From positions 1 to 64,000 of the forward strand of contig JALJCO010007048.1 in the NCBI GenBank assembly GCA_023101725.1: 64,000 nt of DNA. The letters are read 5' to 3'. Under the pieces are notes generated by a model. It was not told the origin of the DNA. It made no database searches and worked only from the letters and a program-made list of their open reading frames with translations. Of this stretch, positions 1 to 19,621 are shown piece after piece (within the stretch, counting starts at the first letter, position 1; each line of letters opens with the position of its first letter). The position numbers and the translations under genes are program-made. Source of the stretch: Atherinomorus stipes. Lineage: Eukaryota > Chordata > Actinopteri > Atheriniformes > Atherinidae.

Positions 1-2
1 TC

Positions 3-1163
3 ATACCCAGGAGAGAGAGATTCTGGTGCCTGATTGATGAGGAGGAATCCTTGGCTAGACAGTGCAAGGCATCAAGCCTCGTGGGGGGCGAGGTGACGGG
101 TCTTGAAGGGGAGGATGGACAGGAAAGAGAGGACATCGTTGGTGGTGATGATGATGATGATGACGATGATGATGATGACGACGACGGGGACAACAGTGGA
201 CATGTACAGCTCGAAGATAACACTCCCCAAGGCGAGGACGATAAGAAGGAAGGAGAACCACCACCTATTGCTGTGAGTTGCGATTGGTACGAGAGGGGTG
301 TAGGGGGCTACATGGTTCTTGACTCCCGTCTCCTCATAGAATTTGTACCGAGTCTTCCTCAGAACGAAAACCATGTGCTCTTTCAGCCTGTGCACAACCG
401 AGATAATCACGGAACCAGGGCTACGGTCACAGCGGACGGTAGGCTGGTCAAGTATTACCAACCGTACAAGTTCTCTTCACTGATGTACGATGTTTGCACG
501 GTGCTGGTCTATGGATGTGGATTGACACCGGTGTTTGTACACGGCTCGTCGGACATGGCCGGAGTGAGGGTCCTCAACCTAGCACTGGGAACGCTTGCGA
601 TTGCCGACCGACTCTCCTCTCATGTCCGTCCCGACCGCGCAAGGGTCGTGGTCGTGGTACGCGAGGGCAAAGAGGAAATGCTGAAGCTAGCCCGGGAGAT
701 CAACCGCTGCATCGTTGTTACTAAGGGCTGGCACGAGCACGTCACAAAACACAAGACAGAGGAGAGAAGGGCGAGGGTAGGCAATCTGGCCTACGCGTTC
801 AGAGGATTACCGCTTAGCCCAGAAACCGAGACCTGCACCAATCGTCCCTGGCCGGGGATCGGCAAGTTTGCCACCGAAAGCTGCTACACGGTTCCGGATA
901 GGTTCCTAGGCGAAACCGGCGTGTCCGCTTACGCTAACCTGATAGCACTGTGGCCCTCCGCGGCCTGCAGAAAGGACGTGAAACACCCCGCGTGCTCGCG
1001 AGACCCGACATGGATAGGCATCATGCTGTGTCTAGCGGAGTGGCAAGGACACAGAGAGATCGCAAACGCGGTTGCCCCCGGAGCCCTGGAAGCTCTGAGA
1101 ACGGCAGCGGCCAAGGACCTCTCCGGTTGGGGCAGGCCCGTAGGACATCCGCGATGCCTCTGA
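3..1163 (+). CDS. Viral protein of unknown function, 5' partial, with acidic run
   Basis: The frame is open to the left edge of the window with no stop, so the start lies upstream or on an earlier exon; a TTG at 51 is not a credible start. About 386 residues are visible. The first third carries a long Asp run encoded at 149-186 and is otherwise hydrophilic. From about base 310 the protein becomes globular, with a hydrophobic stretch (VLVYGCGLTPVFVHG) and a segment of basic and acidic residues rich in Val (RARVVVVVREGKEEM). No Walker A, polymerase or protease motif is visible. Its stop codon overlaps the ATG of the next gene (1154), suggesting co-transcription. In channel catfish herpesvirus several genes lie inside the long terminase intron, so this could be one of those, but I cannot assign a family. 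Confidence 0.7.
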   Translation: MPRRERFWCLIDEEESLARQCKASSLVGGEVTGLEGEDGQEREDIVGGDDDDDDDDDDDDDGDNSGHVQLEDNTPQGEDDKKEGEPPPIAVSCDWYERGVGGYMVLDSRLLIEFVPSLPQNENHVLFQPVHNRDNHGTRATVTADGRLVKYYQPYKFSSLMYDVCTVLVYGCGLTPVFVHGSSDMAGVRVLNLALGTLAIADRLSSHVRPDRARVVVVVREGKEEMLKLAREINRCIVVTKGWHEHVTKHKTEERRARVGNLAYAFRGLPLSPETETCTNRPWPGIGKFATESCYTVPDRFLGETGVSAYANLIALWPSAACRKDVKHPACSRDPTWIGIMLCLAEWQGHREIANAVAPGALEALRTAAAKDLSGWGRPVGHPRCL

Positions 1164-2716
1164 TCGAACTGTACGATTCTGCGTGCAGGGCGCGGGTGCT
1201 GGGACACGTTGAACCACATCTGCGGGAGTTTGTAGATTCGTTCCAGGAGCCCAAGCTGTCCGCTTTGACGCCAGAGGAGCCCCGTGCGGAGCGCATAAAC
1301 GAATACACAGTGTGGCTCACGGTACGGGGCGTAGAACACGGACACGCCATAGCGAGAAACCGGCATCAGCCCGTGACGATGTCCGAAGCCGTGAGTGCCT
1401 TTGCCAAGCTGAACAGAGACTTTGTCACGGGATCTCGGGAAGAGTCTCTGAACGCGCTGGATTCACTGCAGGACTTTGTCGCGCTCATGCTTCGGTACCC
1501 CATACTCCCTCAACTGGCCACGGACACCAAAGAGTGTCACGAGTGCTACTACGAGGCGGACATCACGCTCGATGCATGGGAAGACGTACGGAGGACCATT
1601 TCCTGCTATCACTACACACTGAGGCACGAAGCGTTCGGACGGAGAGACCGCCGTACGGCGGCACCGAATCCCGACCCTCTGGTCGGCCCGCCGGAGGACA
1701 GCTGCGAAGAGATGGCGAGGGCCGGACCGTCCGGGGAGGTGTTCGCAAGTGGTCCGAGCAAAGAGGCCGGGGAGAGCAGCGAGGTGAGCGGGGCGGACTC
1801 TTTGAAACCAGTCAAGTTCCTGGCGCAGCTGGAGTCGCTCAAGAGACGGGATGAGATTGTCAAGCAGAAGACCCTCGGCAAGGAAATCTTCCATCAGCTG
1901 AAAGCACACAGTCACACCATGGAAGAGCTGAAGGCCCCCAGGTACCTGAGCGACTATCCGCTGCGGTGCCTCTACCAGTTCTATGGCTCGTTGAACAGGA
2001 GCAGAGAGAGGGCTCTGTTCTTGGCCAGGCCGTATCCTGAGGCCAGAGAGGACGGGGCGCGAGCTCTCGCTGCGGTCCAGGGGTTACAGATGAACCTGAG
2101 ATCCACAGCCTCCACGGGAACAAATGACGCGCTGCTCTCGTACGTGTGCATGGCGATGATAGGTCCCGTGCGTAGATACACGCCCAGGTACAACTACACG
2201 GCCGGGAGGGTGGTCTTCTTCAAGCATCTGATCGCGTCGGGCTTCCCCATAGAAACGGCATTCAATCTGGTGAAGAGCGTACGCGTGGCCAAGAGAGTCT
2301 CCATGATCGGCCTGACGTTGGACCAAGGCGTGGAGCTACAACTCAAGCGAACGGTGCAGCCCACCGCCTATAACAGAAAGCTGGCATCCTTGATATGGTT
2401 ATTTTCCCACATCACCGCATACTGTACGCTTCGACAGCTGACCCGTGGCTACGTGCGCATGGGGGACACGCACGAAGCCCTGGCCTGCGATGGAATCTTT
2501 GTGTTTGACGGAGACCGCGTCGGCTTCAGACTCTCCCAATCGCCCGAGCCCGAGTCACCATCGGGCACGGTCTCTGGATCCACGGGATTCGGAACGGCAG
2601 CGCCGCCGGACGCAACACGGACACGGTCACCACCCGCAACGGCATGTGTGCCCTTTGCCAGACTTCTGGAATTGCTTGCACTGCGAGATAGCGTTCAGGA
2701 GAGAATTCACCACTAG
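1154..2716 (+). CDS. Viral protein of unknown function (520 aa)
   Basis: The frame is open from 950, but the first 200 bases are the shadow of the previous gene. The ATG at 1154 overlaps the upstream stop (1161-1163) and gives a clean start reading MPLIELYDSACRARVLGH. Visible features are an N-terminal globular part with a Cys pair (ECHECYYEADI), a low-complexity Ser/Glu/Gly linker at roughly residues 165-220, then a long globular region with many Arg, Tyr and Leu residues ending near GIFVFDGDRVGFRLSQ. The last 60 residues are Pro/Ser/Thr-rich and look less coding-like, while the +1 frame becomes protein-like from about 2640. The true 3' end may therefore involve a splice or frame change. A primase-type role is conceivable from gene position in catfish herpesvirus, but no decisive motif is seen. 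Confidence 0.7.
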   Translation: MPLIELYDSACRARVLGHVEPHLREFVDSFQEPKLSALTPEEPRAERINEYTVWLTVRGVEHGHAIARNRHQPVTMSEAVSAFAKLNRDFVTGSREESLNALDSLQDFVALMLRYPILPQLATDTKECHECYYEADITLDAWEDVRRTISCYHYTLRHEAFGRRDRRTAAPNPDPLVGPPEDSCEEMARAGPSGEVFASGPSKEAGESSEVSGADSLKPVKFLAQLESLKRRDEIVKQKTLGKEIFHQLKAHSHTMEELKAPRYLSDYPLRCLYQFYGSLNRSRERALFLARPYPEAREDGARALAAVQGLQMNLRSTASTGTNDALLSYVCMAMIGPVRRYTPRYNYTAGRVVFFKHLIASGFPIETAFNLVKSVRVAKRVSMIGLTLDQGVELQLKRTVQPTAYNRKLASLIWLFSHITAYCTLRQLTRGYVRMGDTHEALACDGIFVFDGDRVGFRLSQSPEPESPSGTVSGSTGFGTAAPPDATRTRSPPATACVPFARLLELLALRDSVQERIHH

Positions 2717-3140
2717 AGTCACCGGCGCCGGTCCTGACCAATCCTACGATGCGCTAGTGCGGTTCGGTATCGGTCCCGTAACCGGCATGGCCAACCTACA
2801 GTGGAAACGCGATGTTCTAGAGTCGCACAATATCGAGAGCAGAAGGCGCTCTGCGGACAGGTATGGACGGTTGCTTGAAGGGTACGCGCGGAGAAGGCGT
2901 ACGGCTCGGGACGCCCCGGTCCCTGTGCAGCAGCAGCAGCAGCAGCCACAAACACAAAGGCCCAGGGTTGCGATGAGGTGGAAAAGACCCGTCTGTATGC
3001 AGAGGAAACGTGCAGAGGCCTGCGCGGCCCCGAATGCCGGGAGACGGCACGGAGAAGATGAACGCAGAGGGACGACGCAGAGACAAACGGAGAGGGACAA
3101 TACGGACCGTGGACTTGCGTGGCCCAATGTTTTGCATTGA
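2640..3140 (+). CDS. Possible 3' exon or overlapping gene in another frame
   Basis: This frame is open from 2445 to the stop at 3138-3140, but only the part after about 2640 looks like protein. It begins with a Cys/His cluster (HVCPLPDFWNCLHCEIAF), continues through a globular stretch around SYDALVRFGIGPVTGMANLQ and an Arg-rich segment, then a short CAG-encoded Gln run at 2929-2943 and a basic tail. There is no good ATG at the head of the protein-like part. It may be the spliced or frameshifted C-terminus of the gene ending at 2716, or a separate small gene starting further in. A poly(A) signal follows at 3185. Confidence 0.4.
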   Translation, partial: RHVCPLPDFWNCLHCEIAFRREFTTRVTGAGPDQSYDALVRFGIGPVTGMANLQWKRDVLESHNIESRRRSADRYGRLLEGYARRRRTARDAPVPVQQQQQQPQTQRPRVAMRWKRPVCMQRKRAEACAAPNAGRRHGEDERRGTTQRQTERDNTDRGLAWPNVLH

Positions 3141-3184
3141 TGTACATGTGTTTGTGCGTGTGTGCGAGTGTCAAAGAACGACTG

Positions 3185-3190
3185 AATAAA
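3185..3190 (+). promoter_or_regulatory. Poly(A) signal for the 1-3140 plus-strand genes
   Basis: AATAAA lies 45 bases after the last plus-strand stop (3140). It faces a minus-strand signal at 3301, so the two transcription units converge with little overlap. Confidence 0.7.
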
Positions 3191-3300
3191 GGCAGCACCT
3201 GTCTGCAAATTGTGCCCAGCACCTGTGTCTGGTTCATTTCATCTCATGTCCAGTCGACACATAGAGAATCACCACGGTTCACCATATCACAGAATAGGGT

Positions 3301-3306
3301 TTTATT
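3301..3306 (-). promoter_or_regulatory. Poly(A) signal for the minus-strand gene 3410-4726
   Basis: TTTATT on the plus strand (AATAAA on the minus strand) lies about 100 bases downstream of the stop of the minus-strand gene. Confidence 0.65.
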
Positions 3307-3409: not shown

Positions 3410-4726
3410 TCACAGTTCAATGGCCGTCGTGGCCCCTGCTATTCCTTGCGATGCCATGAGCTTTGCCTCCGACCTCCCCTCGTGCTCCTCGTAATAACCC
3501 GTCGAGGAGGGCGTTCTCCTCTTCCTGGGGGCCAGTGTAACGCGCTGCAACTGCACCTCTGTGTGGTCGACAGCAGGAGCGCTTTGCGTGCCCGTCTGAC
3601 ACGCAAGCCTCAAACTCTCCTCCTTCTCCTCTTCATCCTCGGCGTGCCTCCCTTTTTGTCGTCTGCCCCCGGACTGTCCGTTCGGCAGACATCGCCGCGC
3701 GGTGCTTCCCAGGTATCTGGCGTTCCCTATGTACTCCTCCAGGGTGACCGTGACCACGGCTGGCAGCAACCTGTCGAGTTCACCGTCCGATGACAACGGC
3801 ACCCTTTTAGTAAACTCTGGCTTCTTCACGTGCAGGTGAATGTGCGTGGACAGAGTGGACCACTGGTTGTGTCTGGTGCGAGTCTTGTCGAAGCACATGA
3901 GGACCAGGGTCCTGCTGTTAAATAGGTCGCCTAGCACGCGATGCTTCAGGTATGGGAAAAAGCACAGTGCCAGCATGACCATCATGGTTTGGAAGTCGTC
4001 CCTGGCTGCGTTTGTGTCATTGTTGTACTTGCATGCCACCTTCTTCATGAAGCGTTTGATCCTGTTGTCCCGCGTGTCGTACAGCGTGGTTACGGCCACC
4101 GCGCTCTTCAGGACCGCCTCCTTTATGCTCGAGGCCGATTCCCGGGGACATGGCAGCTCGGGCTCTGAGCCGAACTGTATCGTCTCGGCCAGGTTAAGGA
4201 TCCTTGCCATCCAGGACACGCTCAGTGGGTTACCGGACGACAACCCGTTCAGTCTGCAGCATTTGTCTATGGCCTCGTACTGCCGTCGGAATTCCTGGGT
4301 CAGCAACGTCGAGAAAAGGGCAACCATGACAGGCAAGCCTGCTTTCAGTATGAGACATTTGTGGTCTGTGTCCGTGCTGCAAACCCCGCCGGCACGAGGA
4401 GGGGGATGTTCCATGCCCCCGTAACCCGTTTCTCCGGCATCTCCTCTGTCAGGCATTTCGTACGGCCCTCTGAATTCAAGCTGTGGTTTGTGGAAGACGG
4501 CCAGAGCAGCGACCAGACATGAGGCCTCTGACGATGCATCGATCCGATCTGGGGTTCGCGTGACCATGTTTCGTATCAGGTAACAGCCGTGCCCGGAGCA
4601 CACGTGCTTGCTGCAGTGCATCGGGCACACGTAGCCCTTTGCGTGGTCTCTGAATGAGCATTGTGCCTCCACGCAGCCGCTCACCCACTGCGGATCCTCT
4701 ATTAATTCTATGTGGTAATGGTTCAT
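3410..4726 (-). CDS. Cys/His-rich viral protein of unknown function (438 aa)
   Basis: The ATG at 4726 is preferred over the upstream GTG at 4747 and gives MNHYHIELIEDPQWVSG. Residues about 18-48 hold a dense Cys/His cluster (GYVCPMHCSKHVCSGHGCYL, plus two Cys just before), which probably binds zinc. The middle is globular and Leu-rich (residues about 85-330, including MMVMLALCFFPYLKHRV). The C-terminal 100 residues are charged, with an Arg/Lys-rich patch and a Glu-rich run, and look disordered. There is no signal peptide. The pattern of closely spaced Cys and His recalls small zinc proteins of large DNA viruses such as the UL92-like family, but the resemblance is only to a pattern and I do not assign it. 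The gene lies antisense, upstream of the first visible terminase exon, and probably inside the terminase intron. Confidence 0.75.
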   Translation of the reverse strand: MNHYHIELIEDPQWVSGCVEAQCSFRDHAKGYVCPMHCSKHVCSGHGCYLIRNMVTRTPDRIDASSEASCLVAALAVFHKPQLEFRGPYEMPDRGDAGETGYGGMEHPPPRAGGVCSTDTDHKCLILKAGLPVMVALFSTLLTQEFRRQYEAIDKCCRLNGLSSGNPLSVSWMARILNLAETIQFGSEPELPCPRESASSIKEAVLKSAVAVTTLYDTRDNRIKRFMKKVACKYNNDTNAARDDFQTMMVMLALCFFPYLKHRVLGDLFNSRTLVLMCFDKTRTRHNQWSTLSTHIHLHVKKPEFTKRVPLSSDGELDRLLPAVVTVTLEEYIGNARYLGSTARRCLPNGQSGGRRQKGRHAEDEEEKEESLRLACQTGTQSAPAVDHTEVQLQRVTLAPRKRRTPSSTGYYEEHEGRSEAKLMASQGIAGATTAIEL

Positions 4727-4908: not shown

Positions 4909-4972
<64 letters not shown>

Positions 4973-5080: not shown

Positions 5081-5665
5081 GCAAGCAGAGGACAGAGCGC
5101 TGATCTGATCCTGGTTGACGAAGTGGGGTTTGTAAACACCAAGGTGCTTTTGGCTGTGTTGCCAAACATCGCGTTCAGGGGTCGAAAGCAGGTGCACATC
5201 ACCAGCCATGTCACTCACACCCCGTGGCTGGATAAAGTTGCTGATATACGCAGAGACGATGGGGAGGCGGCATACCACGTGGTATCGCAGAGATACAAGT
5301 GTGCGTACCACGAGAGAGAGCCAGGCTTGACGTGCGTGTGTCTTGGCGTGTACTGTCCGCAACATATATCCGTAGACAATGAGCTCAAGGAGTTGATGAA
5401 CATGGTTGCACCGAAGGGCTTTGAGCGCGAAGTCACGGGAAGCTGCAAACTGTCCTCGGCCGACACTAAGACGGACAGCACGACACCATTTGAGTCTGCG
5501 GTCATAAACCGGTTCCTGTCAAACAACAGTGTCAGCTTGGACCAAATGACCACCCGAGCAGCAGTGGCCAGAGCGTATCTGTGTCTCGATCCGACATTCG
5601 GAGGGGGTTCCAGATCCTGTGCAGGGGTGTGCTGTGCTGTGGAGCTGGCAGATGGCACACTAGTG
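5081..5665 (+). CDS. Terminase large subunit, internal exon (Walker B to start of nuclease domain)
   Basis: The terminase large subunit is the ATPase/nuclease motor that packages concatemeric viral DNA into procapsids in the nucleus. The exon opens after a CAG splice acceptor (5078-5080) in phase 0. Its first residues, RGQSADLILVDEVGFV, match the herpesvirus Walker B region, where a conserved RGQ precedes a hydrophobic strand and Asp-Glu. Near the exon end, YLCLDPTFGGGSR carries the first acidic residue of the RNase H-like nuclease domain. The exon ends after GTG at 5665, before a GTGGGT donor, and joins 6876 in phase 0. The Walker A exon expected upstream is not in the window. In catfish herpesvirus this gene has three widely spaced exons, and in mammalian herpesviruses it is also spliced. 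The reading frame is intact throughout. Confidence 0.85.
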
Positions 5666-5700: not shown

Positions 5701-6570
5701 TTAAAATTGTTTTGTGTTCGTTTCCTCTTCTTCCTTTTTCCTCTCCTGTATGCCCGACGAATCCAATCCAGACACACGAAGGTCTTCAAACAGGCCCCCG
5801 TAATCCAAGGGCTCGCGGCCTCCTCCGCCACAGGGCAGCCTGTGCAGGCGGTCGCGGAGCCCGTATCGTTTCTGCGTTTGGGAAGCAAGGCTGAGGTCTA
5901 GCAACGTACAAATGTACGCACTTATACGAGCCTCGTCCTGGATTGTCAACGTTGTCTCCGCATCCGGTACAGCGCATGAAACCAGTTCCAGGGCTTGAGC
6001 CCACGTCCCGCACGTACATCGCACGGAGCCCTTGAGCGTCGCCATCCAGCCCGCGATCGCCAGGGAAATGATGGTATGAAATGAGCGTCTGCTACGCGGA
6101 GTGCTTTCTTTGAGTATAGCCATGAACTTGGCAGGCCCGCTGCGAATAGTCTCTGCAGACGCGTAAGTCGCGAGTACCATTGTCTCGTGTCCCCTCCATT
6201 TGCAGTTTGAGATGCACTCATGTACAAACTGTTCCGGGACGCTGTTGCCTATAGCAAGCGTTATGGCTCTGACCAGTTCACGGGGAACGCAGAGCGGTTC
6301 ACCTCTCGGCAAGGTTTCACCTAGTCGTTGCCCTCTGCTATAGGTGGAGATCAGTGTGTCGACCACAAGTATCCTGGCGGGTGAGAAGGACACAAGCTGA
6401 CTGTACATTTGTCTCAGCTGTCCGCGGTCCATGTTGGAATAGAAGAGAACATTGCGTTGGAACGAGGCGTACACTATCATGAACTCGTAGAATGCGATGA
6501 GGTGTTCCCACGGCATTCTGCGGAATGTCTCGATTTCCATTCGTGCATTGTGACAAGCGGGACAGAACAT
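5701..6570 (-). CDS. Intron-nested antisense viral protein (289 aa), unknown function
   Basis: The frame is open from 6873, but its first 100 codons are low complexity and lie in the intron tail. The ATG at 6570 gives MFCPACHNARMEIETFRRMP, with an immediate CxxC that could bind zinc together with later Cys/His residues (CISNCKWRGH and CTCGTW). The body is globular, with Leu/Ile-rich helical stretches (residues about 20-230) and an Asp/Glu/Lys-rich tail. There is no signal peptide or clear membrane segment. It lies entirely within the terminase intron on the opposite strand. By position it is analogous to the gene between the last two terminase exons of catfish herpesvirus, and to the tegument/capsid-associated UL16/UL17 genes in the UL15 intron, but sequence homology to those is not shown here. 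Confidence 0.75.
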   Translation of the reverse strand: MFCPACHNARMEIETFRRMPWEHLIAFYEFMIVYASFQRNVLFYSNMDRGQLRQMYSQLVSFSPARILVVDTLISTYSRGQRLGETLPRGEPLCVPRELVRAITLAIGNSVPEQFVHECISNCKWRGHETMVLATYASAETIRSGPAKFMAILKESTPRSRRSFHTIISLAIAGWMATLKGSVRCTCGTWAQALELVSCAVPDAETTLTIQDEARISAYICTLLDLSLASQTQKRYGLRDRLHRLPCGGGGREPLDYGGLFEDLRVSGLDSSGIQERKKEEEETNTKQF

Positions 6571-6875: not shown

Positions 6876-7706
6876 GTTATGGCCTTGGAGGAGTTGGAGA
6901 TATGCGACCTGGATCACGTAACCCAGCTCTATGCCGCTCTGCTGAGTGCTCACATCAGACTGCTGAAAATCCTCATGCCACGTGTGCTGTGGAAGGAGAT
7001 CCCTGTGGTGATAGTGTTCGAGCAAAACACCTATGTAAATGCGCTGGTGGATGTCAAGAATCTACTCGAGCACTCGCTGGTACGCTCTGGGTTCAAGGTC
7101 GTGTTCTACAGCAAGTGGTCGCACGCCAACAACAAGTACATGCTCGGCAAACACGTGAGTGCAAGGACCAAACTGGACATGGTGCTCGGCACGGTCGCCG
7201 GCATCAACAAAGGAACGTTGTATTACTGTGACACAGTCATGTCCTTGGGATGGGCGTTGTTGACCGAGGTCACAAAGCGAACGAGGATGCTCGAGTCGAG
7301 CATCGGAACTGCCAGGGGCTCTGGGTCTAGCAACAAGATGGGCTCCAACATGGCCGTGTACATGTATAGACGGTCGCGAAAGGGAGTGAATCTGGCCACG
7401 GACATCACGACTAGCCTGTTGGACGCCCGTGATGTCGTGACCCTACCCGCAGACAGACTTACAGACAAAGGCCACGCAGAGCAGGGGAAAATACTTCTTG
7501 GGAAACTGAGAGACGAGATGGCACTTGTGACCATTGCGCACTCTGCAAAAGGGGACTCTGTGATAACAGGTGGGAAAAGATCTGTACGCGGAGAGTACAC
7601 TAGGGACGACGTTCTCTCCGCCTTCTTGCTTCTGTGCCACACCAGAGACGAGATACATAGCGGTGTAACATCTGTCAGACTCAGTGGTGAAGTGTTCTAC
7701 AAGTAG
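6876..7706 (+). CDS. Terminase large subunit, C-terminal exon (nuclease domain)
   Basis: The exon opens after the ccacag acceptor with Val-Met and continues MALEELEICDLDHVTQLY, which corresponds to the beta-strand and LxxLxxxDL region found in herpesvirus terminases after the first nuclease acid. The second catalytic acid is the Glu in VVIVFEQNTYVNAL and the third is in the C-terminal YTRDDVLSAFLLLCH, so the Asp-Glu-Asp metal-binding set of the nuclease is present across the two exons. The domain cuts concatemeric DNA at genome ends during packaging. The stop is at 7704-7706, with a poly(A) signal at 7941. An ATG lies three bases after the exon start, so an automatic annotation would wrongly call a separate gene here. 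There is no frameshift or internal stop. Confidence 0.85.
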   Translation, partial: VMALEELEICDLDHVTQLYAALLSAHIRLLKILMPRVLWKEIPVVIVFEQNTYVNALVDVKNLLEHSLVRSGFKVVFYSKWSHANNKYMLGKHVSARTKLDMVLGTVAGINKGTLYYCDTVMSLGWALLTEVTKRTRMLESSIGTARGSGSSNKMGSNMAVYMYRRSRKGVNLATDITTSLLDARDVVTLPADRLTDKGHAEQGKILLGKLRDEMALVTIAHSAKGDSVITGGKRSVRGEYTRDDVLSAFLLLCHTRDEIHSGVTSVRLSGEVFYK

Positions 7707-8102: not shown

Positions 8103-8696
8103 TTAGTTAGCATCATCCTCATCATCTTCAAAGATGACGCCTGTGGATTTCTTGGTAAAGTCAGTGTATCCACCGGGCTGGTGCCAATATCCGTCACCGT
8201 TGTCGTCCCTGTACTCTAAGCCCATAGACCGCCTGTAGGCGATCACATCCTTGCTGTAAAATGTGGAAGCGGGATCAAAGTCTGGGTGGTCTGGATCCTG
8301 GCAGGGGTCCGATCCGAGACACTCTTCCTTACCATCATCATCATCATCATCATTATCAGTGGGTTCGTGGTCCCCTGAGCGTCCGGGTTGGTGGCAATCA
8401 GAATTCGAGCGATACATGTTGTCGCCATCAGGTGAAGATTTACCGGTGGCCCTACCAATGAGGAATCCACTTCCATCATTATGCTCCCAGGCCCTGTGGT
8501 TGTCAGTGCAGGAGCCACCGGTACCGTTGCTACACTCGTTCGCATGCAGTCCACAGTGTTGTCCCACTGCAGACGGAGGCACGATCCCACTGTGAGGTGA
8601 TGCGGCCTGGTTACAGGTTTCGGTGCTCATGGCAGTTGCGGTATGCATCGCGGTATGAGACGGAGCTCCGTGCCAGTGGCCCACTGATAGCTGCGG
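8103..8696 (-). CDS. Acidic viral protein, probable 3' exon
   Basis: This minus-strand frame is open to 8828, but a strong splice acceptor (tttatttccccacag read on the minus strand) ends at 8697, so the coding part probably starts at 8696 in phase 0 with PQLSVGHWHGAPSH. About 197 residues follow: a His/Ser/Thr-rich start, an Asp run encoded by an ATC-type repeat near 8335-8355, then a more ordered C-terminal part (FYSKDVIAYRRSMGLEYRD) and an acidic end. Function is unknown. The natural upstream partner is the minus-strand frame 8985-9509, whose end has a possible but weak phase-0 donor (GTCTGA). If unspliced, an ATG at 8828 could start a 241-residue protein instead. Confidence 0.5.
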   Translation of the reverse strand, partial: PQLSVGHWHGAPSHTAMHTATAMSTETCNQAASPHSGIVPPSAVGQHCGLHANECSNGTGGSCTDNHRAWEHNDGSGFLIGRATGKSSPDGDNMYRSNSDCHQPGRSGDHEPTDNDDDDDDGKEECLGSDPCQDPDHPDFDPASTFYSKDVIAYRRSMGLEYRDDNGDGYWHQPGGYTDFTKKSTGVIFEDDEDDAN

Positions 8697-8978
8697 CTGT
8701 GGGGAAATAAATGGTTTCCATGCGATCTTACAGTTCAGATGTGTTCCTTTTATGTAGGGGGGTGTGGGTGGGCTGCGGTTGAGAAGGGTTCTGGGGTGGT
8801 TTTCTCTTCTCTTTCTGTCTTTCAGCATCCCCGTCTCTGGTTTCTATTTGTTCCAAATCCGACAGGATACTACGAGTATCCTGTACACCCGCGAGATGGG
8901 GAAAGAGGGTGCTGTTGGAGGAAAGAGGGGCCATGCCATGCCCGTGGGTCTTGAAGGCATTGTTGAAACTGGTCGACT

Positions 8979-9509
8979 TCAGACGTATGTCTCTGCAGGT
9001 TTCAAGTACCGCGCAGCTCTAGGAGGCTGCAAGGGAGGTCTGGGAGAGGGCGGCGGTCTGTAGTGAAACATGGACCTCTCCGGGGGCCGGTGGTTCCCCA
9101 ATGACCTTTGAGGGCTCCTGCTTCCATCTTCCTCAGAGTCTGCTTGAAAGGGCTGGTAGAAGACCTCGGCAGGGACGGCCGGTGTCTTGTACAGAAAGTC
9201 TGGGCTTTCTGGACGCTTGCTGATGCAAGGGACGCAGCCGTACTGCTCTGGATGTTTTGCGCTTACTTCGCGTTGAGGTTGTGGTTGGCGGTGCTGCTCC
9301 TGCTGATGGAGGGCATGCGGTTGTGTGAACCTCCCTTTGGTCTGTTCGACCAGGCGTCTATGATCTATGAGGAACTTTGGAGTCAAGCCCATGGCGCGTA
9401 GAGCATTCTCCGGCATTGCGAGGAAATGTGAGAGGGTCATTTGTACGAATTTGATGCTTTCTGGACCATGACCGTTTTGCTTGAGGAAGCGTTGTACCCC
9501 GGGATCCAT
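8979..9509 (-). CDS. Small viral protein, paralogue-like to 9884-10261 (176 aa or 5' exon)
   Basis: The ATG at 9509 gives MDPGVQRFLKQNGHGPESI. Residues 1-60 form a helical-looking domain with MTLSHFLAMPENALRAMGL followed by DHRRLVEQ. The gene at 9884-10261 shows the same order of features (DP..V near the start, then MSLRAFLLMSP, a GL step and KHRQLVNQ), so the two look like diverged tandem paralogues. The remainder is Gln/Pro/His-rich and probably disordered, with a proline-rich end (RPPPSPRPPLQPPRAARY). It ends at a stop at 8979 or is spliced near 8985 to the exon 8103-8696. The family is not recognised. Confidence 0.6.
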   Translation of the reverse strand: MDPGVQRFLKQNGHGPESIKFVQMTLSHFLAMPENALRAMGLTPKFLIDHRRLVEQTKGRFTQPHALHQQEQHRQPQPQREVSAKHPEQYGCVPCISKRPESPDFLYKTPAVPAEVFYQPFQADSEEDGSRSPQRSLGNHRPPERSMFHYRPPPSPRPPLQPPRAARYLKPAETYV

Positions 9510-9883: not shown

Positions 9884-10261
9884 CTATTTCGGTGGTATGG
9901 GGAGGTCGTCAAACTCCTGAGCATAGAACCTTTCTTCACACTCAAACTGCAGACCTTCGGTAGCGGCGGCTGCAGCCGTAGCAAGGGTCGAGGTGTAGTC
10001 TTCACCTTCTGTGTACAGATCCCAGTCTTCGGTCTTCATCTCAGCTATGATGGCCAACGATTCGGCATACTTGGTCAGTACTTGATTGACCAGCTGGCGA
10101 TGCTTCATCGCAAAGATTAAACCATACCCATGAGCGTCATGCGGAGACATGAGCAAGAACGCCCGGAGAGACATGTTCAGACCTCGAGGGGTACAACCTA
10201 ACCAGGCTTCCACTAACCCTCTCACGGTTGGGTCCTTAATGCATGGGCTGTCGGTGGACAT
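9884..10261 (-). CDS. Small viral protein (125 aa), paralogue-like to 8979-9509
   Basis: The ATG at 10261 gives MSTDSPCIKDPTVRGLVEAW. Residues about 10-65 share spacing and residues with the start of the neighbouring minus-strand gene (DPxV, MSLRAFLLMSP against MTLSHFLAMPE, GL, KHRQLVNQ against DHRRLVEQ). The second half is acidic, with an Ala run (TLATAAAAATEGL) and ends FDDLPIPPK. There is no signal peptide, membrane segment or Cys cluster. It is probably an accessory gene that arose by local duplication. Function is unknown. Confidence 0.65.
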   Translation of the reverse strand: MSTDSPCIKDPTVRGLVEAWLGCTPRGLNMSLRAFLLMSPHDAHGYGLIFAMKHRQLVNQVLTKYAESLAIIAEMKTEDWDLYTEGEDYTSTLATAAAAATEGLQFECEERFYAQEFDDLPIPPK

Positions 10262-10610
10262 GGTTATGTCTCAAACGACCGTGGTAGTCCTGTACTCATT
10301 ATGTAAGGAGATGTGTAGTTAATAGGAACGTGGGTGCCGTATAATATCTGTGTGTGCATGTGGGATCCGTTCATGTTAGGTTTTACTTTTCGTTCGGTGT
10401 TTGGGCTGCCGTCGGCTTTGGATAAAAGACCATGTACGTTTGCACTAGGCGCTGCAGGTTTACCTGGACCAGTGATTTGTGCAGAGTAGAAACACAGAGT
10501 TTGTGTCTTGAGTTTCTAAAACCACGCTCCCAGCACAATCTGTGTTTCTCCTCTGTCTGCAATGCTTTCCCGGGGTCCCCGGACCTGGAGGACCTCCAGG
10601 GGACCTAAGT
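10262..10610. other. Intergenic, no gene seen
   Basis: There is no credible ORF. A GC-rich inverted repeat, CTGGAGG and CCTCCAG around a central A, lies at about 10585-10599. It recurs in both copies of the following duplication. Confidence 0.5.
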
Positions 10611-11065
10611 GAGGGAGAGAGACCAAACTCAGGAGAGGGTCCCCGGGCTGGACCCGGGTCCGGGGTCCCTGGGGCTGGAGGACCTCCAGGGGACCTAAGT
10701 GAGGGAGAGGTCTGTATAGTGTCTGTGATGCGATGCTATACATATTTTAATGCGATAAGGCTTAATTTGAGCCTCCAGGGTGCGTTAAGCCCCCCTTTAT
10801 GTGGAACACTCTGTGTGAAAGGAGCAGCGTGATAGTACATGTCTTCAGTGTTTTATTGGTGAACACTGACAAGAGGTCTGTGCAAACCTCAGCCTTGAAC
10901 TCACTGATGAGAGCATACATGAACTGTGGCTCGGCAATACATCTTGTACTTACTGTTATCTACAAAGTCTGACACGGGGGAGGCATATAGGGTGTTCTAT
11001 TGGTGAAAACTAACCACAGGTCTGTGCATACCTCAGCCTTGAGCTCACTGATGAAAAACATACAT
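10611..11065. repeat. 455-bp direct duplication, copy 1
   Basis: From gagggagagagaccaaactc this copy runs to the tacat before 11066 and is repeated almost exactly in the next 460 bases. It contains the CTGGAGG-A-CCTCCAG hairpin inside a GGTCC-rich segment, a conserved stretch near 10700-10800 and a TTTATT element at about 10851. Short ORFs on both strands are copied with it but show no protein-like features. Confidence 0.85.
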
Positions 11066-11528
11066 GAGGGAAAGAGACCAAACTCAGGAGAGGGTCCCCG
11101 GGCTGGACCCGGGTCCGGGGTCCGGGGTCCCTGGGGCTGGAGGACCTCCAGGGGACCTAAGTGAGGGAGAGGTCTGTATAGTGTCTGTGATGCGATGCTA
11201 TACATATTTTAATGCGATAAGGCTTAATTTGAGCCTCCAGGGTGCGTTAAGCCCCCCTTTATGTGGAACACTCTGTGTGAAAGGAGCAGCGTGATAGTAC
11301 ATGTCTTCAGTGTTTTATTGGTGAACACTGACAAGAGGTCTGTGCAAACCTCAGCCTTGAACTCACTGATGAGAACATCCATGAACTGTGGCTCGGCAAT
11401 ACATCTTGTACTTACTGTTATCTACAAAGTCTGACACGGGGGAGGCATATAGGGTGTTCTATTGGTGAAAACTAACCACAGGTCTGTGCATACCTACACC
11501 TTGAGCTCACTGATGAAAAACATCCATG
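11066..11528. repeat. 455-bp direct duplication, copy 2
   Basis: This is a near-identical tandem copy of 10611-11065. It differs by an extra GGTCCG-type unit near 11110-11130 and scattered substitutions such as agaacatcc for agagcatac. The high identity indicates recent duplication, or gene conversion, within the element. Confidence 0.85.
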
Positions 11529-11629
11529 GGGACGAAACGATAGGGAAAGAGGGGGTTTTTGGGATTTATTATGATCATTGTTGGAGGGGCGCTGTGGAAG
11601 AGCTGTCCAGCAGATGCCGCCGTTTCACC

Positions 11630-12712
11630 GTTAACCCTCCCGCTACCACGGCTAAGTCCAGGTCGTCAGGGACCCCCAGGTTAGTTTTAGCCCCCCTCCC
11701 GCTCCCACGGCCGAGTCCAGGTCGTTAGGGACCCCCAGGTTAGTTATAGTCCCTCCCGCTCCCACGGCTGAGTCCAGGTCGTCAGGGACCCCCAGGTTAG
11801 TTATCCCTCCCGCTCCCACGGCCGAGTCAAGGTCGTCAGGGACCCTCTCCCGCTACCACGGCTGAGTAAAGGTCGTCAGGGACCCCCAGGTTAGTTTTAA
11901 CACCCCTCCCGCTCCCACGGCCGAGTCCAGGTCGTCAGGGACCCTCTCCCGCTCCCACGGCTGAGTCCAGGTCGTCAGGGACTCCCTCCCGCTACCACGG
12001 CTGAGTAAAGGTCGTCAGGGACCCCCAGGTTAGTTTTAACACCCCTCCCGCTCCCACGGCCGAGTCCAGGTCGTCAGGGACCCTCTCCTGCTCCCACGGC
12101 CGAGTCCAGGTCGTCAGGGACTCCCTCCCGCTACCACGGCTGAGTCCAGGTCGTCAGGGACCCCCAGGTTAGTTTTAGCACCTCTCCCGCTCCCACGGCC
12201 GAGTCCAGGTCGTCAGGGACCCTCTCCCGCTCCCACGGCCGAGTCCAGGTCGTCAGGGACTCCCTCCCGCTACCACGGCTGAGTAAAGGTCGTCAGGGAC
12301 CCCCAGGTTAGTTTTAGCCCCCCTACCGCTCCCACGGCCGAGTCCAGGTCGTCAGGGACCCTCTCCCGCTCCCACGGCCGAGTCCAGGTCGTCAGGGACT
12401 CCCTCCCGCTACCACGGCTGAGTCCAGGTCGTCAGGGACCCCCAGGTTAGTTTTAGCCCCCCTCCCGCTCCCACGGCCGAGTCCAGGTCGTTAGGGACCC
12501 CCAGGTTAGTTATAGTCCCTCCCGCTCCCACGGCCGAGTCCAGGTCGTCAGGGACCCTCTCCCGCTCCCACGGCCTAGTCCAGGTCGTCAGGGACTCCCT
12601 CCCGCTCCCACGGCCGAGTCCAGGTCGTTAGGGACCCCCAGGTTAGTTATAGTCCCTCCCGCTCCCACGGCCGAGTCCAGGTCGTCAGGGACCCCCAGGT
12701 TAGTTTTAGCGC
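11630..12712. repeat. GC-rich minisatellite, about 22 copies
   Basis: The core unit reads cccgctcccacggccgag followed by tccaggtcgtcagggaccc, about 40 bp, alternating with longer units that add ccaggttagttttag (to about 60-65 bp). Variant units carry taccacggct and gtaaaggtc in place of the common bases. Long and short units alternate in a higher-order pattern, which points to repeated unequal exchange. No coding capacity. Confidence 0.9.
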
Positions 12713-12747
12713 ATTTTCTATGACACCACGTCCACCACATTCACTGC

Positions 12748-12785
12748 CACACACACACACACACACAGACATACAAATACACCCC

Positions 12786-12833
<48 letters not shown>

Positions 12834-12948
12834 AACACACACCCACACACACAAACACACAGACACAATGACACATATACACACACACAAACACACACAC
12901 ACACAGACACACACACACACACACACACACAAATCCAGACACACACAC

Positions 12949-12981
<33 letters not shown>

Positions 12982-13043
12982 CAGAAAGCGGTCCCGGACC
13001 GAGCCCCACGCTCCGAAGGCCGACCGATTTACTACCGATCTTC

Positions 13044-13129
<86 letters not shown>

Positions 13130-13193
13130 CAGAAAGCGGACCCGGACCGACCCCGACGCTCCGAAGGCCGGCTGATTTACTGCCAGACTCTTC

Positions 13194-13237
<44 letters not shown>

Positions 13238-13316
13238 CAGAAAGCGGACCCGGACCGACCCCGACGCTCCGAAGGCCGGCTGATTTACTGCCAGACTCTT
13301 CCTACACACACACACA

Positions 13317-13368
<52 letters not shown>

Positions 13369-13503
13369 CAGAAAGCGGACCCGGACCGACCCCCACGCTC
13401 CGAAGGCCGACTGATTTACTGCCAGACTCTTCCTACACACACACACACACAAACACACAGACACAATGACACATATACACACACACAAACACACACACAC
13501 ACA

Positions 13504-13586
<83 letters not shown>

Positions 13587-13616
13587 CAGAAAGCGGCCCG
13601 GACCGACCCACCTCCG

Positions 13617-13677
<61 letters not shown>

Positions 13678-13741
13678 CAGAAAGCGGACCCGGACCGAGC
13701 CCCACGCTCCGAAGGCCGGCTGATTTACTGCCAGACTCTTC

Positions 13742-13799
<58 letters not shown>

Positions 13800-13985
13800 C
13801 AGAAAGCGGACCCGGACCGACCCCGACGCTCCGAAGGCCGGCTGATTTACTGCCAGACTCTTCCTACACACACACACACACACACACAACACACACACAC
13901 ACACACACACACACAACAGAAAGCGGACCCGGACCGACCCCCACGCTCCGAAGGCCGGCTGATTTACTGCCAGACTCTTCCTACA
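12748..13985. repeat. CA microsatellite tracts alternating with a conserved spacer
   Basis: Long (CA)n runs are broken about eight times by a spacer of up to 67 bp that starts acagaaagcggacccggacc, continues through gctccgaaggccggctg and ends actcttcctac. One copy (near 13587-13615) is shortened. The whole CA-plus-spacer block behaves as a tandem unit of variable CA length. Long open frames through it are artefacts of the dinucleotide. Confidence 0.9.
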
Positions 13986-15290
13986 CGCAAGGTACCAGCC
14001 GCTGTCCTTCTCCTCCTCTCCCAAACATAAATCTCCATCCACACTCCCACATTCCTCGAATTCCTCTGCTCTGTAAAAGGGGAGGATGACGGTGAGGGGG
14101 GGGGGGGGTAGGACGATCTCCAGCTGTGCTCTGAATGGAGGAAGGGGAGGGGTGGGATTTCCAGGCATAACGAGGTACCAGCCGCTGTCCTTCTCCTCCT
14201 CTCCCAAACATAAATCTCCATCCACACTCCCACATTCCTCGAATTCCTCTGCTCTGTAAAAGGGGAGGATGACGGTGAGGGGGAGTAGGACGATCTCCAG
14301 ATGTGCTCTGAATGGAGGAAGGGGAGGGGTGGGATTTCCAGGCATAACAATGGACTCCTTGTTAGCCCTGATAGCCATGTACATCTGCCCTCATGTGAAG
14401 AGCCTCTGCTCCTATCCTGTGAGGCATGTGGAATTCACAACTGCCCAGAGCCTTCTGGTTGAGGGGCCTGGGGAGAGAACAGACGTGAGCGAGTAACCCA
14501 TGAGAAGAAGTCCACCCCCCCCTCCCTCCTCCTCTCCCAAACATAAATCTCCATCCACACTCCCACATTCCTCGATTTCCTCTGCTCTGTAAAAGGGGAG
14601 GATGACGGTGAGGGGGGGGGGTAGGACGATCTCCAGCTGTGCTCTGAATGGAGGAAGGGGAGGGGTGGGATTTCCAGGCATAACGAGGTACCAGCCGCTG
14701 TCCTTCTCCTCCTCTCCCAAACATAAATCTCCATCCACACTCCCACATTCCTCGAATTCCTCTGCTCTGTAAAAGGGGAGGATGACGGTGAGGGGGAGTA
14801 GGACGATCTCCAGATGTGCTCTGAATGGAGGAAGGGGAGGGGTGGGATTTCCAGGCATAACGAGGTACCAGCCGCTGTCCTTCTCCCCCTTTCCCAAACA
14901 TAAATCTCCATCCACACTCCCACATTCCTCGAATTCCTCTGCTCTGTAAGAGCGAGGATGACGGTGAGGGGGAGGAGGACAATCTCCAGATGTGCTCTGA
15001 ATGGAGGAAGGGGAGGGGTGGGATTTCGAGGCATAATAACAAGGTACCAGCCGCTGTCTTTCTCCTCCCGTCCCAAACATAAATCTCCATCCACACTCCC
15101 ACATTCCTCGAATTCCTCTGCTCTGTAAGAGCGAGGATGACGGTGAGGGGGAGTAGGACAATCTCCAGATGTGCTCTGAATGGAGGAAGGGGAGGGGTGG
15201 GATTTCGAGGCATAATAACAAGGTACCAGCCGCTGTCTTTCTCCTCCCGTCCCAAACATAAATCTCCATCCACACTCCCACATTCCTCGA
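13986..15290. repeat. About 180-bp tandem repeat, seven full or partial copies
   Basis: Units begin with ggtaccagccgctgtcc and end near gggatttccaggcataac. They start near 13990, 14172, 14527 (left-truncated), 14688, 14865, 15043 and 15221 (right-truncated). Between copies two and three lies unique sequence (14345-14515). Long minus-strand frames run through the array because the unit carries few stops, but their period equals the DNA repeat and nothing suggests a protein. Confidence 0.85.
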
Positions 15291-15704
15291 CCCCCAAGTA
15301 ACCGTAAAGGGCGGGCGTACGAAGCCCCACGCTCCCAGGACCGGCTGATTTACTACGGGGCGCGGTGTGGACAGATCCCAAAAACAACTCAGTCACTCAC
15401 TCTCTCTCTCCACCCCCCCACCCGCTCGCGGTCATCAGGCACAGAGAGGGGCTACGGTTATGTACTGTTGCAATGAATGTGGATGTATTTATTGACATCA
15501 TGTCCATGTCACATGGCTGGGATATTACACTGTACAGGACAGTCACAGGAGCGGAGGTATACGGATGGGACTGAGCAGAGCAAAAAAGGGCAGCCTAAAG
15601 GTACATACGACACAAAGACGGATTAAAAAAAAAAAAAAAAAAGAAATTCCATACAGCAAAGAGAAGAGAAGACAGAAAAAGGACATAATTCCCACAACAG
15701 GACC
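15291..15704. other. Transition to the transposase module, no gene seen
   Basis: The segment 15317-15352 resembles the spacer of the CA array (ccccacgctcc and ccggctgatttacta). A poly(A) run lies at about 15625-15643. The upstream region or promoter of the transposase would lie here, but I see no clear core element. Confidence 0.4.
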
Positions 15705-17337
15705 ATGAGCAGAACCAGGATTTACACAGGCAAGGATGCGGTCCTCCAACACACAGAACCAGTGGCCACGTGTTGCTATAATTATGATGATGACGACGAT
15801 GATGATGATGATGATGATAATGACGATGACGACTTGCGTCTCTACGCACGCTGTATCGACCACGGTGACGGGACCCGCAACAAAGGCCGGACCCCTCATA
15901 CGAGTAACAGCGATGGCAACAGTAATAGTATCGCTGGCACCGCGGATTGTGGCAGGATCCATAACGATACTGGGAGGAGAACTAATAGCCACGGTGGTCA
16001 GGACCGCAAAGAAACTGAAGGAGACAGAGTGGAAGACAAAGAAGAAGCAGACGCAGGGGAAGACAAAGAAGACGAAGGAGAACAAGAAGCAGAAGCAGAC
16101 GCAGGGGAAGAAGACGAAGCAGAAGAAGACAGAGAAGACGGAGAAGAAGAACACGAAGAAGAAGAACACGAAGAAGAAGAAGAAGAAGAAGAAGAAGAAG
16201 AAGAAGAAGAAGAAGAAGAAGAAGGCCCAGGGACTAAGCAGGGACCGATTAAATCTAAAAATGGGAAGATTACATGGTACCGTTCTCCTTCCCAGGCCAG
16301 GCGGCAGGGTGGGGACGGAGGAGGAGGAGGAGGAGGAGGAGAAGAAGAAGAAGATGAAGAAGAAGAAGAAGGAGAGGGTGGTGCCTTCTGGAGTAACGTT
16401 GGCGTTACCCATACACCACCCCCACAGCAGCACCGTTACCATTACGCTCTGGGGGGACAGGGCCCCACAGAGTATGCTAAAGCTCGCATCACTGACATTG
16501 CTTCGACTTTCCGCCTGTTTCTAACGGATGAGTTGGAACGGATCATCCTGAACGCAACCAACGCAGAGGGGCTGCGAAGGCACGGCCGTGGAGGAGAAGG
16601 AAGGGGGGGAGGGGAAGAAGAAGAAGAAGAAGAAGAAGAAGGAGAAGGAGAAGAACAAGGAGGACAAAAAGACAAAAAAGGACACGACAATGAAGTAGAT
16701 GATGGACAGGACCTGGATGATGGAGAAGAGGAAGTAGACATGGACAGAGTACATGATGATGATGATGATGATGATGATGAGGACGAAGACGAAGAAGGAG
16801 AAGAAGAAGAAGAAGAAGAAGAAGAAGAAGAAGAAGAAGAGGACGAAGAAGAAGAAGAAGAAGAAGAAGAAGAGGACGAAGAAGAAGAAGAAGGACACGG
16901 AAAGAGAGGAGAGCGGAGGCCCGGCCAGAAGAAGACGAAGGAGAAGAACAAGAAGAAGAAGAAGAAGAAGAAAAAGAAGGACAAGCAACAGGGGCGACGG
17001 ACGGACTGTTGGAAAGACATGGATGCGGTGGATCTACGCGCGTACATGGGCTTGCTGATTCTGGCGGGTGTGTACAGATCACGCGGAGAAGCCGCAGCCA
17101 GTCTGTGGCACACAGAGAGCGGCCGCTCAGTGTTTCGCGCGACAATGCCGTTGTACCGCTTCTACAGCTGCTCGTCGCTGCTGCGGTTCGACGATCGGGC
17201 CACCAGAGAAGTCAGACGCGCTTTTGACAAGCTCGCTGCCATCAGGGAGCTGTGGGACGCCTGGTCAGAGAGACTGCCTCTCCTCTACAACCCCGGTCCA
17301 GAGGTTACGGTGGACGAGCAGCTGGTTCCTTTCAGAG
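15705..17337 (+). CDS. piggyBac-type transposase, exon 1
   Basis: The transposase cuts and rejoins DNA at TTAA ends. Exon 1 starts at ATG 15705 and ends in phase 1 at 17337, before a GTGTGT donor. The N-terminal half is dominated by simple-sequence insertions: Asp runs (near 15785-15830), Glu runs (16140-16225, 16615-16645, 16790-16890), Gly and Lys runs. Between them lie recognisable family segments: KITWYRSPSQARR, then FRLFLTDELERIILNATNAE, then DLRAYMGLLILAGVYRSRGE. The first catalytic Asp is in VTVDEQLVPFRG at the exon end. The family is usually about 550-650 residues; here the joined length would be about 977, the excess being charged repeats. A start further downstream is possible. The frame is intact. 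Confidence 0.9.
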
Positions 17338-17616
17338 GTGTGTGTGTGTGTATACAATACATAGAGGGATTGTTAGATGATAGATGGTAATGACACATGT
17401 TTCTTTCTCCTCTCCTCTCTGCCTCTCCTATCCTCTCCTCTCCTCCCGTCCTCTCCTCTCTTCACCTCTCCTCGCCTCTCCTCTCCTCGCCCCTCCTCTC
17501 CTCTCTTCACCTCTCCTCTCCTCTCCTCTCCTCTCCTCTCCTCTCCTCTCCTCTCCTCTCCTCTCCTCTCCTCTCCTCTCCTCTCCTCTCCTCTCCTCTC
17601 CTCCCCTCTCCTGCAG
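17338..17616 (+). other. Transposase intron, mostly a CTCTC tract
   Basis: It starts GTGTGTGTG at 17338 and ends ctgcag at 17616. From about 17400 it is almost pure CTCTC repeat, acting as an extreme polypyrimidine tract. Removing it rejoins the conserved block just after the first catalytic Asp (the FRGRC segment) in frame. Confidence 0.85.
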
Positions 17617-18917
17617 GACGCTGTGCATTTCGGCAGTACATGCCTAGCAAGCCGGCAAGATACGGTATCAAGTCGTGGGTCGCCTGCGACGCACGGTCCA
17701 GCTACGCGTGGAAAATGCAAATATACACGGGCAGGAGGAGGAAACCGGCGGCGGCGGCGGGGGGGCCAGCCGAGGCCTTGTCCTCGTCTCCAGCAGAGAA
17801 AAACTTGGGCATGCGTGTGGTTTTGGACGTGACCGAAGGCTTGACGGGCAGGAACATCACGTGTGACAATTTCTTCACCTCATACGAACTCGCTCTGCGT
17901 CTTCTAGCTCCCGACCGTGGCAACACTTTGGTCGGAACAATGCGCAGAAACAAGCCCGAAATCCCACCCGCGCTGCTTGCAACCAAAGGACGGCCTGTGG
18001 CATCTTCTGCCTTTGCTTTCACGCGGGACGCGGCTATTGTCTCCTATGTGCCCAAAAAAAACAAGGTGGTGATATTACTCAGCACGCTGCATCGCGGACA
18101 GGTGCAGCAGCAGCAGCAGCAGCAGCGGCGCCAAGAAAAACAAAAGGAAAAAGAAAAAGAAAAAGAAAATGGAATAGGAAAACGAAAACGAAAAGCAAAC
18201 ACGCACGACCACGACGGGGACGGGGACGACAACAACAGGACAGGGGTCCGTACCACGAGGGACGAGGGCGGGCAGAGGACAAAGGAGAAACCCGAGATTA
18301 TTCTCCACTACAATCGTAACAAAGGCGGCGTGGATAATCTGGACAAGGTTGTCGGAACATATAGCTGCCGAAGGATGACCGCGAGATGGCCGATGGCCGT
18401 CTTTCACAACATTCTCGACGTGTCAGCGTACAACGCGTTTGTCTTGTGGCGAGAAATCCATCCCGAATGGATGCCGCGCAGACGCAACAAAAGACGCTTC
18501 TTTCTAGAGCAGCTGGGACGTGCTCTGGTAGCCCCCCAGATCCAACGCAGATCTCACCTGCCCCGCGAACGCGTCTCCGCCACTATCGTGACGGCCGCTC
18601 GCTGCCGCGGCGCCCCCCCACATGCCGCCTCCGCTCATGCACTCCACAGGGATCCCCCCTCCCCCCCCAGTGCATCATCGGACCGCGGCGGCACCCATTC
18701 CCAGGGAGATGGAGAACCTGAGCATCCGAATTCCGCTCCTGCCCCCGTACCCGCAGACAAACCCAGCGCCGTGGTGGTACAGAAGAGCAAACGGAAACGC
18801 TGTCAAATATGCCCGCCGAATAGGGACCGCAAAACACAAATTGTCTGCTATGCTTGCAAGAAATCTATCTGCAGAAGCTGCGCGCTGCTTTACTGTCCCA
18901 CATGCGGTCCTACATAG
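17617..18917 (+). CDS. piggyBac-type transposase, exon 2 with C-terminal zinc domain
   Basis: The exon opens with the family block CAFRQYMPSKPARYGIKSW. The second catalytic Asp is in NITCDNFFTSYELALRLL and the third in YNRNKGGVDNLDKVVGTY, so the DDD set of piggyBac transposases is complete. Between the second and third lies an inserted Gln run and a Lys/Glu repeat (about 18100-18200). After HNILDVSAYNAFVLW comes a Pro-rich linker and then the Cys-rich domain: CQICPPNRDR, CYACKKSICRSC and CPTC, the cross-brace zinc domain that in this family binds the terminal repeats. The stop is at 18915-18917. All diagnostic residues are present, so the gene may still encode active enzyme. Confidence 0.92.
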
Positions 18918-19084: not shown

Positions 19085-19144
<60 letters not shown>

Positions 19145-19202
19145 GACAGGGAAACAACGGATAGAAAATGACATTACACTACAAAGGCTGCCTGCGCATG
19201 CG

Positions 19203-19247
<45 letters not shown>

Positions 19248-19394
19248 AGACCCCCCCCCCCCCGCGCCCCCTGAAGGGAAAAACACAAAGTACTCCACAG
19301 AAACACTGAAAGAAATAAAGAAAAAATAAAAAGACAGAGGAATGCACTGCACATCCCCGACCGAGGCCGTAAAAGACCCAGTGATAACATCTAA

Positions 19395-19425
<31 letters not shown>

Positions 19426-19617
19426 GCGCGCCCCCTGAAGGGAAAAACACAAAGTACTCCACAGAAACACTGAAAGAAATAAAGAAAAAATAAAAAGACA
19501 GAGGAATGCACTGCACATCCCCGACCGAGGCCGTAAAAGACCCAGTGATAACATCTAATGTGCCCCCCCCCCCCCCCCCCCACACACACATAATCAAGCC
19601 AGAGCAGAGCACAAGGG
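18918..19617. repeat. Right terminal region of the element, simple repeats and a two-copy repeat
   Basis: After the transposase come a GAAA-rich stretch, poly-C tracts, CA tracts and a roughly 167-bp unit present twice (19260-19404 and 19427-19570) containing gaagggaaaaacacaaagta. The last unique bases are aatcaagccagagcagagca then caaggg. By analogy with piggyBac ends, the outermost bases form the terminal inverted repeat, beginning CCCTTGTGC when read inward. The matching left repeat is outside the window. Confidence 0.7.
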
Positions 19618-19621
19618 TTAA
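19618..19621. other. TTAA target site at the right junction
   Basis: The element ends GGG at 19615-19617 and is followed directly by TTAA, the duplicated target of piggyBac transposons. Beyond it the sequence changes to AT-rich fish intergenic DNA. The partner TTAA at the left end is not in view. Confidence 0.75.

Follow-up and report, generated by a model that had tools for sequence, protein, structure and literature searches.

A probable Teratorn-like herpesvirus/piggyBac element at its junction with host DNA in the fish Atherinomorus stipes

A stretch of 64,000 nucleotides from the fish Atherinomorus stipes (contig JALJCO010007048.1 of assembly GCA_023101725.1, positions 1 to 64,000 of the forward strand; hereafter the window) was analysed. 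Its left part, from position 1 to about 19,621, is likely to be the right end of an integrated Teratorn-like alloherpesvirus/piggyBac fusion in which the transposase lies at the edge of the element. Within this one contig a piggyBac transposase with its three catalytic aspartates (DDD) is linked to herpesvirus genes: uninterrupted terminase exons, long open reading frames (ORFs) and an uninterrupted transposase gene stand together to the left of a compositional junction with host DNA, and the interval of this junction contains GGG-TTAA. The window opens inside the element, the left side of which lies outside it. The left end would lie there too, the virus would belong to the Alloherpesviridae, and virus and transposon would move jointly. 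A preliminary description of this DNA had assigned it to the Teratorn class; the architecture fits, and membership, predicted from a single viral gene, a transposase and a candidate end, is the best reading.

Elements of this kind are described in two reports. In medaka, Teratorn measures 180 kb, unites piggyBac with an alloherpesvirus, is active in transposition, and contains intact viral genes as well as internal terminal inverted repeats (TIRs) and long repeats (Inoue et al. 2017, PMC5601938). Of 77 teleost species surveyed, at least 22 had Teratorn-like sequences (Inoue et al. 2018, PMC5822658). In the later survey, a Teratorn-like element had to have more than 8 of the 13 genes that form the alloherpesvirus core, the transposase tended to lie at the edge, beside various herpesvirus genes, in salmonids, yellow croaker, killifish and Nile tilapia, and terminal sequences were available for medaka, for one salmon contig and for subtype 1 of tilapia (Table 2, PMC5822658). 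According to the earlier report, piggyBac copies flank the herpesvirus sequence in Nile tilapia, and piggyBac ends start with CCYT, target TTAA and have TIRs of 12-19 bp (PMC5601938).

The transposase is encoded on the plus strand by two exons. Exon 1 (15705..17337) comprises an acidic low-complexity N-terminal part, followed by the catalytic domain as far as the first aspartate (VDEQ). A GT-AG intron of 279 bp (17338..17616), packed with TCTCC repeats, separates it from exon 2 (17617..18917), which contains the second and third aspartates (ITCDN and GGVDN), a low-complexity insert, a Cys-rich tail and the stop codon. Together the exons amount to about 977 codons with no internal stop (lengths summed by hand; the join was not constructed). 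Pfam DDE_Tnp_1_7 was matched in both, at E = 5.6e-19 in exon 1 and 1.3e-37 in exon 2. The PDB chain 6x67_C, annotated 'Transposase' and taken by us to be the T. ni piggyBac transposase, aligned with exon 2 (E = 1.7e-41) and exon 1 (E = 5.3e-11) with all three catalytic aspartates in register. The predicted protein would thus belong to the piggyBac superfamily, and the uninterrupted reading frame is compatible with possible competence for transposition. A match of exon 1 to a Ran GTPase-activating protein in PDB (E = 1.4e-4) fell in the acidic low-complexity part and was disregarded.

Both DDD and zinc domains had been claimed for this protein. The DDD was upheld by the alignment to 6x67, and what remains of the zinc part is a Cys-rich C-terminus that aligned weakly with 6x67_C (9.2 bits). 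The protein resembles classical piggyBac (6x67, 9c0f) in its catalytic domain, its three aspartates and, weakly, this Cys-rich tail. Unlike classical piggyBac, it has the acidic N-terminal part, an insert of about 60 residues before the third aspartate, a cysteine in place of one aligned histidine of the tail, and viral genes linked to it. The insert (about 18090-18275), which lies within the catalytic domain and is absent from 6x67, is of low complexity, with poly-Gln, Lys/Glu-rich and Asp-rich tracts.

The viral side of the element is identified by the terminase. The frame 5000-5701 on the plus strand matched Pfam DNA_pack_C (PF02499) at E = 1.9e-8 (34.2 bits, curated cutoff 22.8), and the piece 5090-5701 did so at E = 1.3e-8; a PHROGs phage terminase family matched the same exon region at 9.5e-4. 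This first exon was placed at 5081..5665 (+), preceded by AG and followed by GT, with a GC content at third codon positions (GC3) of 0.63. It contains a stretch LILVDE, which we take to be Walker B-like, and presumably the first nuclease aspartate. The next and last exon is predicted at 6876..7706 (+) from splice phase, order and motifs; it is preceded by AG and ends in a stop codon at 7704-7706, with AATAAA at 7941. Its Glu and Asp motifs, recognised by eye, are presumably those expected in the nuclease. On its own it gave no significant match in Pfam, NCBIfam, PHROGs or PDB, and the first exon matched no solved terminase in the PDB search. The PDB matches of the two exons were weak, concerned unrelated proteins only and were rejected. 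Neither exon is interrupted. The intron (5666-6875) contains an ORF on the opposite strand, ORF-D, and other herpesviruses also carry genes within terminase introns. No Walker A pattern was seen in the six frames of 1-20,000 outside 10,600-15,500, so the window should begin to the right of the ATPase part of the terminase. The terminase exons of the preliminary description are thus borne out, the first by PF02499 above its curated cutoff and the second by phase, order and motifs, and PF02499 points to a terminase of the type found in Herpesvirales.

These genes lie in a gene-dense block (1 to about 19,620) of about 55% GC, after which GC falls to about 42% over 44 kb. In 1-10,500, stop-to-stop ORFs of 592, 460, 391 and 386 residues were found, all longer than the maximum of 364 reached in 200 dinucleotide-preserving shuffles of that region. 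ORFs of at least 200 residues numbered 12 (antisense shadows counted), against no more than 3 in any shuffle and none in two stretches of the flank of the same size. The packing of ORFs is compact and virus-like. The compact viral-type genes reported earlier are accordingly seen again as an excess of ORFs over shuffles and over the flank, their products being without a family match. ORFs A-D and the terminase exons have GC3 values of 0.61-0.71, and the transposase falls in the same range, at 0.63 in exon 2 and 0.71 in the catalytic portion of exon 1. The observed/expected ratio of CpG is 0.82 in 1-10,500, 0.73 in 1-19,617 and 0.62 in the flank. Neither Rfam, applied at its gathering thresholds, nor a search for tRNA genes returned anything in the whole window.

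The best single GC breakpoint was placed at 19,442 (GC 0.545 to the left, 0.419 to the right), with an interval of 19,271-19,774 within 5 log-likelihood units. GGG-TTAA at 19615-19621, which had been proposed as the end of the element, is present inside this interval, about 700 bp beyond the transposase gene. It is part of ACAAGGG-TTAA at 19,611-19,621, the opposite strand of which reads TTAA-CCCT and fits the CCYT/TTAA rule. The candidate right terminal repeat occupies 19594..19617 (-), reads CCCTTGTGCTCTGCTCTGGCTTGA inwards and starts with CCYT; the candidate target site TTAA occupies 19618..19621. A direct duplication of 164 nt (19251..19578, 99% identical) adjoins this end. The motif is not rare, with five copies of GGGTTAA and four of TTAACCC on the plus strand of the window. 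The chance of finding TTAA-CCYT within the 500-bp breakpoint interval is about 2% by hand arithmetic, so that the exact right end, though placed here by inference, is well supported. No TIR partner for it was found within the window, nor a second copy of it (18 bases, up to 3 mismatches).

Beyond the junction, the flank (19622..64000) carries Tc1-type and long interspersed nuclear element (LINE)-type remnants. A DDE_3 match at 26133-26468 (-; 2.5e-8) marks a transposase remnant, presumably Tc1-type, and a reverse transcriptase match (RVT_1, 2.3e-21) at 30343-31041 (+) lies in a LINE-type remnant that extends over shifted frames from 29833 to 31672. The transposon-bearing character given to the flank in the preliminary description is therefore confirmed, and these 44 kb of lower-GC DNA on the same contig place the element in host chromosomal DNA, an error of assembly being possible. 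A fish origin agrees with the class of element and with the transposons of the flank. A BLAST comparison found no repeat common to both sides of the junction.

Published Teratorn-like viruses share this architecture, including the tendency of the transposase to lie at the edge, which favours the fusion. The terminase and transposase matches, the excess of ORFs, the CCCT end inside the GC breakpoint interval, the single copy of that end, the lack of repeats common to the two sides and the similar GC3 also speak for it. Several observations weigh against it. Only one of the 13 alloherpesvirus core genes was recognisable (the terminase, by its later exons), in a window that starts inside the element, so that the others would lie to its left, and the seven ORFs A-G had no significant family match. 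A search of viral contigs with two pieces of the terminase, transposase exon 2, ORF-B, ORF-C and the 24-base end, but not with ORF-A or ORF-D to ORF-G, gave no relative. Transposase exon 2 likewise had no relative in prokaryote genome contigs. Published Teratorn-like elements were compared by description, not by sequence. TTAA-CCYT occurs at five sites of the window, counting both strands, three of them in the orientation of the end, and the window holds neither a left end nor a target-site duplication. CpG splits the two sides poorly and, varying within the flank between 0.24 and 1.00 per 2 kb, gives weak support as a divider. The segment 10,262-11,630 is intermediate in composition (GC 0.497, CpG 0.47), with one of 216 host windows of the same size as GC-rich, and 7,707-8,100 has a host-like GC of 0.404, but is only 394 bp long. 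In favour of a single unit, nothing clearly host-like was found when the DNA between terminase and transposase was checked for host sequence. The first terminase exon had no relative in phage records.

A tandem-repeat block of 4.8 kb (10570..15336) lies between the two genes and comprises four families: a 462-nt unit present twice (10610-11532), a 40/59-nt family of 22 copies (11635-12714), CA-rich units of 120-130 nt (12748-13986) and units of about 180 nt in 7 copies (14010-15336). In the third of these, a GC-rich 120-130-nt unit is interspersed with CA-repeat arrays. When a left piggyBac end was sought within the window, the one site obtained was a weak candidate at 11631..11644 (+), TTAA-CCCTCCCGCT. 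It may represent an internal end, a TIR of the type that medaka Teratorn has inside it, or the left boundary of a discrete piggyBac copy like those of tilapia, or chance. A discrete copy would span about 11,631-19,621 and form the edge of the virus, an arrangement like that of Nile tilapia; this 8-kb unit could move alone, and the whole would move only by way of the outer ends of two copies. Such an arrangement, which is as much a sub-form of the favoured explanation as a rival to it, is considered unlikely. The TTAA-CCCT at 11,631 is the sole TTAA-CCYT on the plus strand of 1-15,600, it opens the 40/59-nt family, and it equals the right end at 7 of 10 bases; moreover, such an architecture is described for tilapia, and internal TIRs are described for medaka Teratorn. 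However, 20 TTAA sites were tested on the element side, and 5 of 594 host TTAA sites match the right end equally well. With gaps allowed, the score of the site is reached by 55 of 593 host TTAA sites and exceeded by site 6836. Nor is there a match here of the 12-19 bp published for piggyBac TIRs. It is doubtful that the 8-kb unit is both mobile alone and able, with a partner on the far side, to carry a whole, intact, mobile endogenous herpesvirus in a host unreported for one.

An old herpesvirus insertion beside an unrelated piggyBac copy, with no joint movement of the two, is very unlikely. Virus-free piggyBac copies exist in teleosts, and the intermediate composition of 10,262-11,630 could be that of a short piece of host or transposon DNA. 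However, with viral DNA on its left and host DNA on its right, a lone piggyBac would need to have landed at the border of the virus; moreover, there is no second copy of the end, and both genes are uninterrupted and similar in GC3. It is highly improbable that the assembler joined free viral or element DNA to host DNA, for although reads were not part of the evidence, the junction is a piggyBac-type TTAA end 700 bp past the transposase gene, as insertion predicts.

In the favoured reading, a single Teratorn-like unit, the transposase would cut at CCYT-type ends beside TTAA and paste the whole unit into another TTAA. The virus would thereby be inherited and spread as a transposon, its genes being carried as cargo and perhaps also permitting a viral phase. 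With medaka Teratorn the element has in common the linkage of herpesvirus genes, including the terminase, to a DDD piggyBac transposase, a CCYT/TTAA-type end, long repeats and integration in host DNA. The medaka transposase is embedded in the herpesvirus sequence, next to ORF60 and ORF54, whereas that of the present element is at the edge, with the terminase as the closest viral gene that could be recognised; medaka Teratorn has internal TIRs and 13 core genes, where this window has a weak candidate site and one core gene. The position of the transposase at the element edge is that of the edge-type viruses of Nile tilapia, yellow croaker, salmonids and killifish. Whereas the survey lists terminal sequences for three hosts, the contig studied here crosses a candidate terminus into host DNA.

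The remaining ORFs of the left block were searched against one or more of the same family databases. ORF-A (3..1163, +) runs off the window on its left side, encodes at least 386 residues and is longer than any shuffle ORF; it gave no match in Pfam (to E 1), PHROGs (to 0.1) or PDB (to E 1), and its best NCBIfam E was 0.22. ORF-B (1154..2716, +), which encodes 520 residues counted from its ATG, shares its first 10 bases with the end of ORF-A, and AATAAA follows at 3185; no significant match was obtained in Pfam, NCBIfam or PHROGs, and none in PDB to E 1. The other five are on the minus strand. ORF-C (3410..4726; 438 residues; reverse-strand poly(A) signal at 3301) gave a sub-threshold Pfam match to DUF7071 (E = 0.11) and nothing significant in NCBIfam or PHROGs, and ORF-D (5701..6570; 289 residues; reverse poly(A) signal at 5681), inside the terminase intron, had no match in Pfam, NCBIfam or PHROGs. 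The acidic ORF-E (8103..8828), which also has a poly(A) signal downstream, had no Pfam match. ORF-F (8979..9509; 176 residues) was without a match in Pfam and NCBIfam, and ORF-G (9884..10261; 125 residues) without one in Pfam to 0.01, its best NCBIfam E being 0.22. A pattern seen by eye (F-L-x-M ... R-x-L-V-x-Q) hinted that ORF-F and ORF-G might be paralogues, but BLASTP gave no support (E = 1.8). For ORF-B and ORF-D, structure models predicted from single sequences were unusable (mean predicted local distance difference test scores of 37.4 and 38.7), and a fold search with the ORF-D model, which gave no match at E 0.001, was uninformative given the model and was discarded.

Further repeats were observed in the host flank. 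An inverted pair of 737 bp (38096-38830 and 41258-41994; 97.7% identical) probably arose from one host repeat, of which both members would be recent copies. A large inverted duplication with arms of about 550 bp (90.8% identical) and more self-similarity inside occupies 42435-43712, and nested inverted repeats at 22870-24126, with arms of 72, 65 and 34 nt that are 86-88% complementary, possibly mark a non-autonomous DNA transposon.

The Teratorn-like class (2017-2018) and the edge position of its transposase are already published. The element is most likely another example of those described in fish, probably new as a locus and known in kind, and it leaves the overall picture of the class unchanged. 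Sequenced edges of Teratorn-like elements are scarce, however, with three hosts in the 2018 survey (PMC5822658). A contig that spans uninterrupted viral genes, an uninterrupted transposase, a candidate TTAA end and host DNA would allow tests of which ends the transposase uses and of whether the virus moves together with the transposon.

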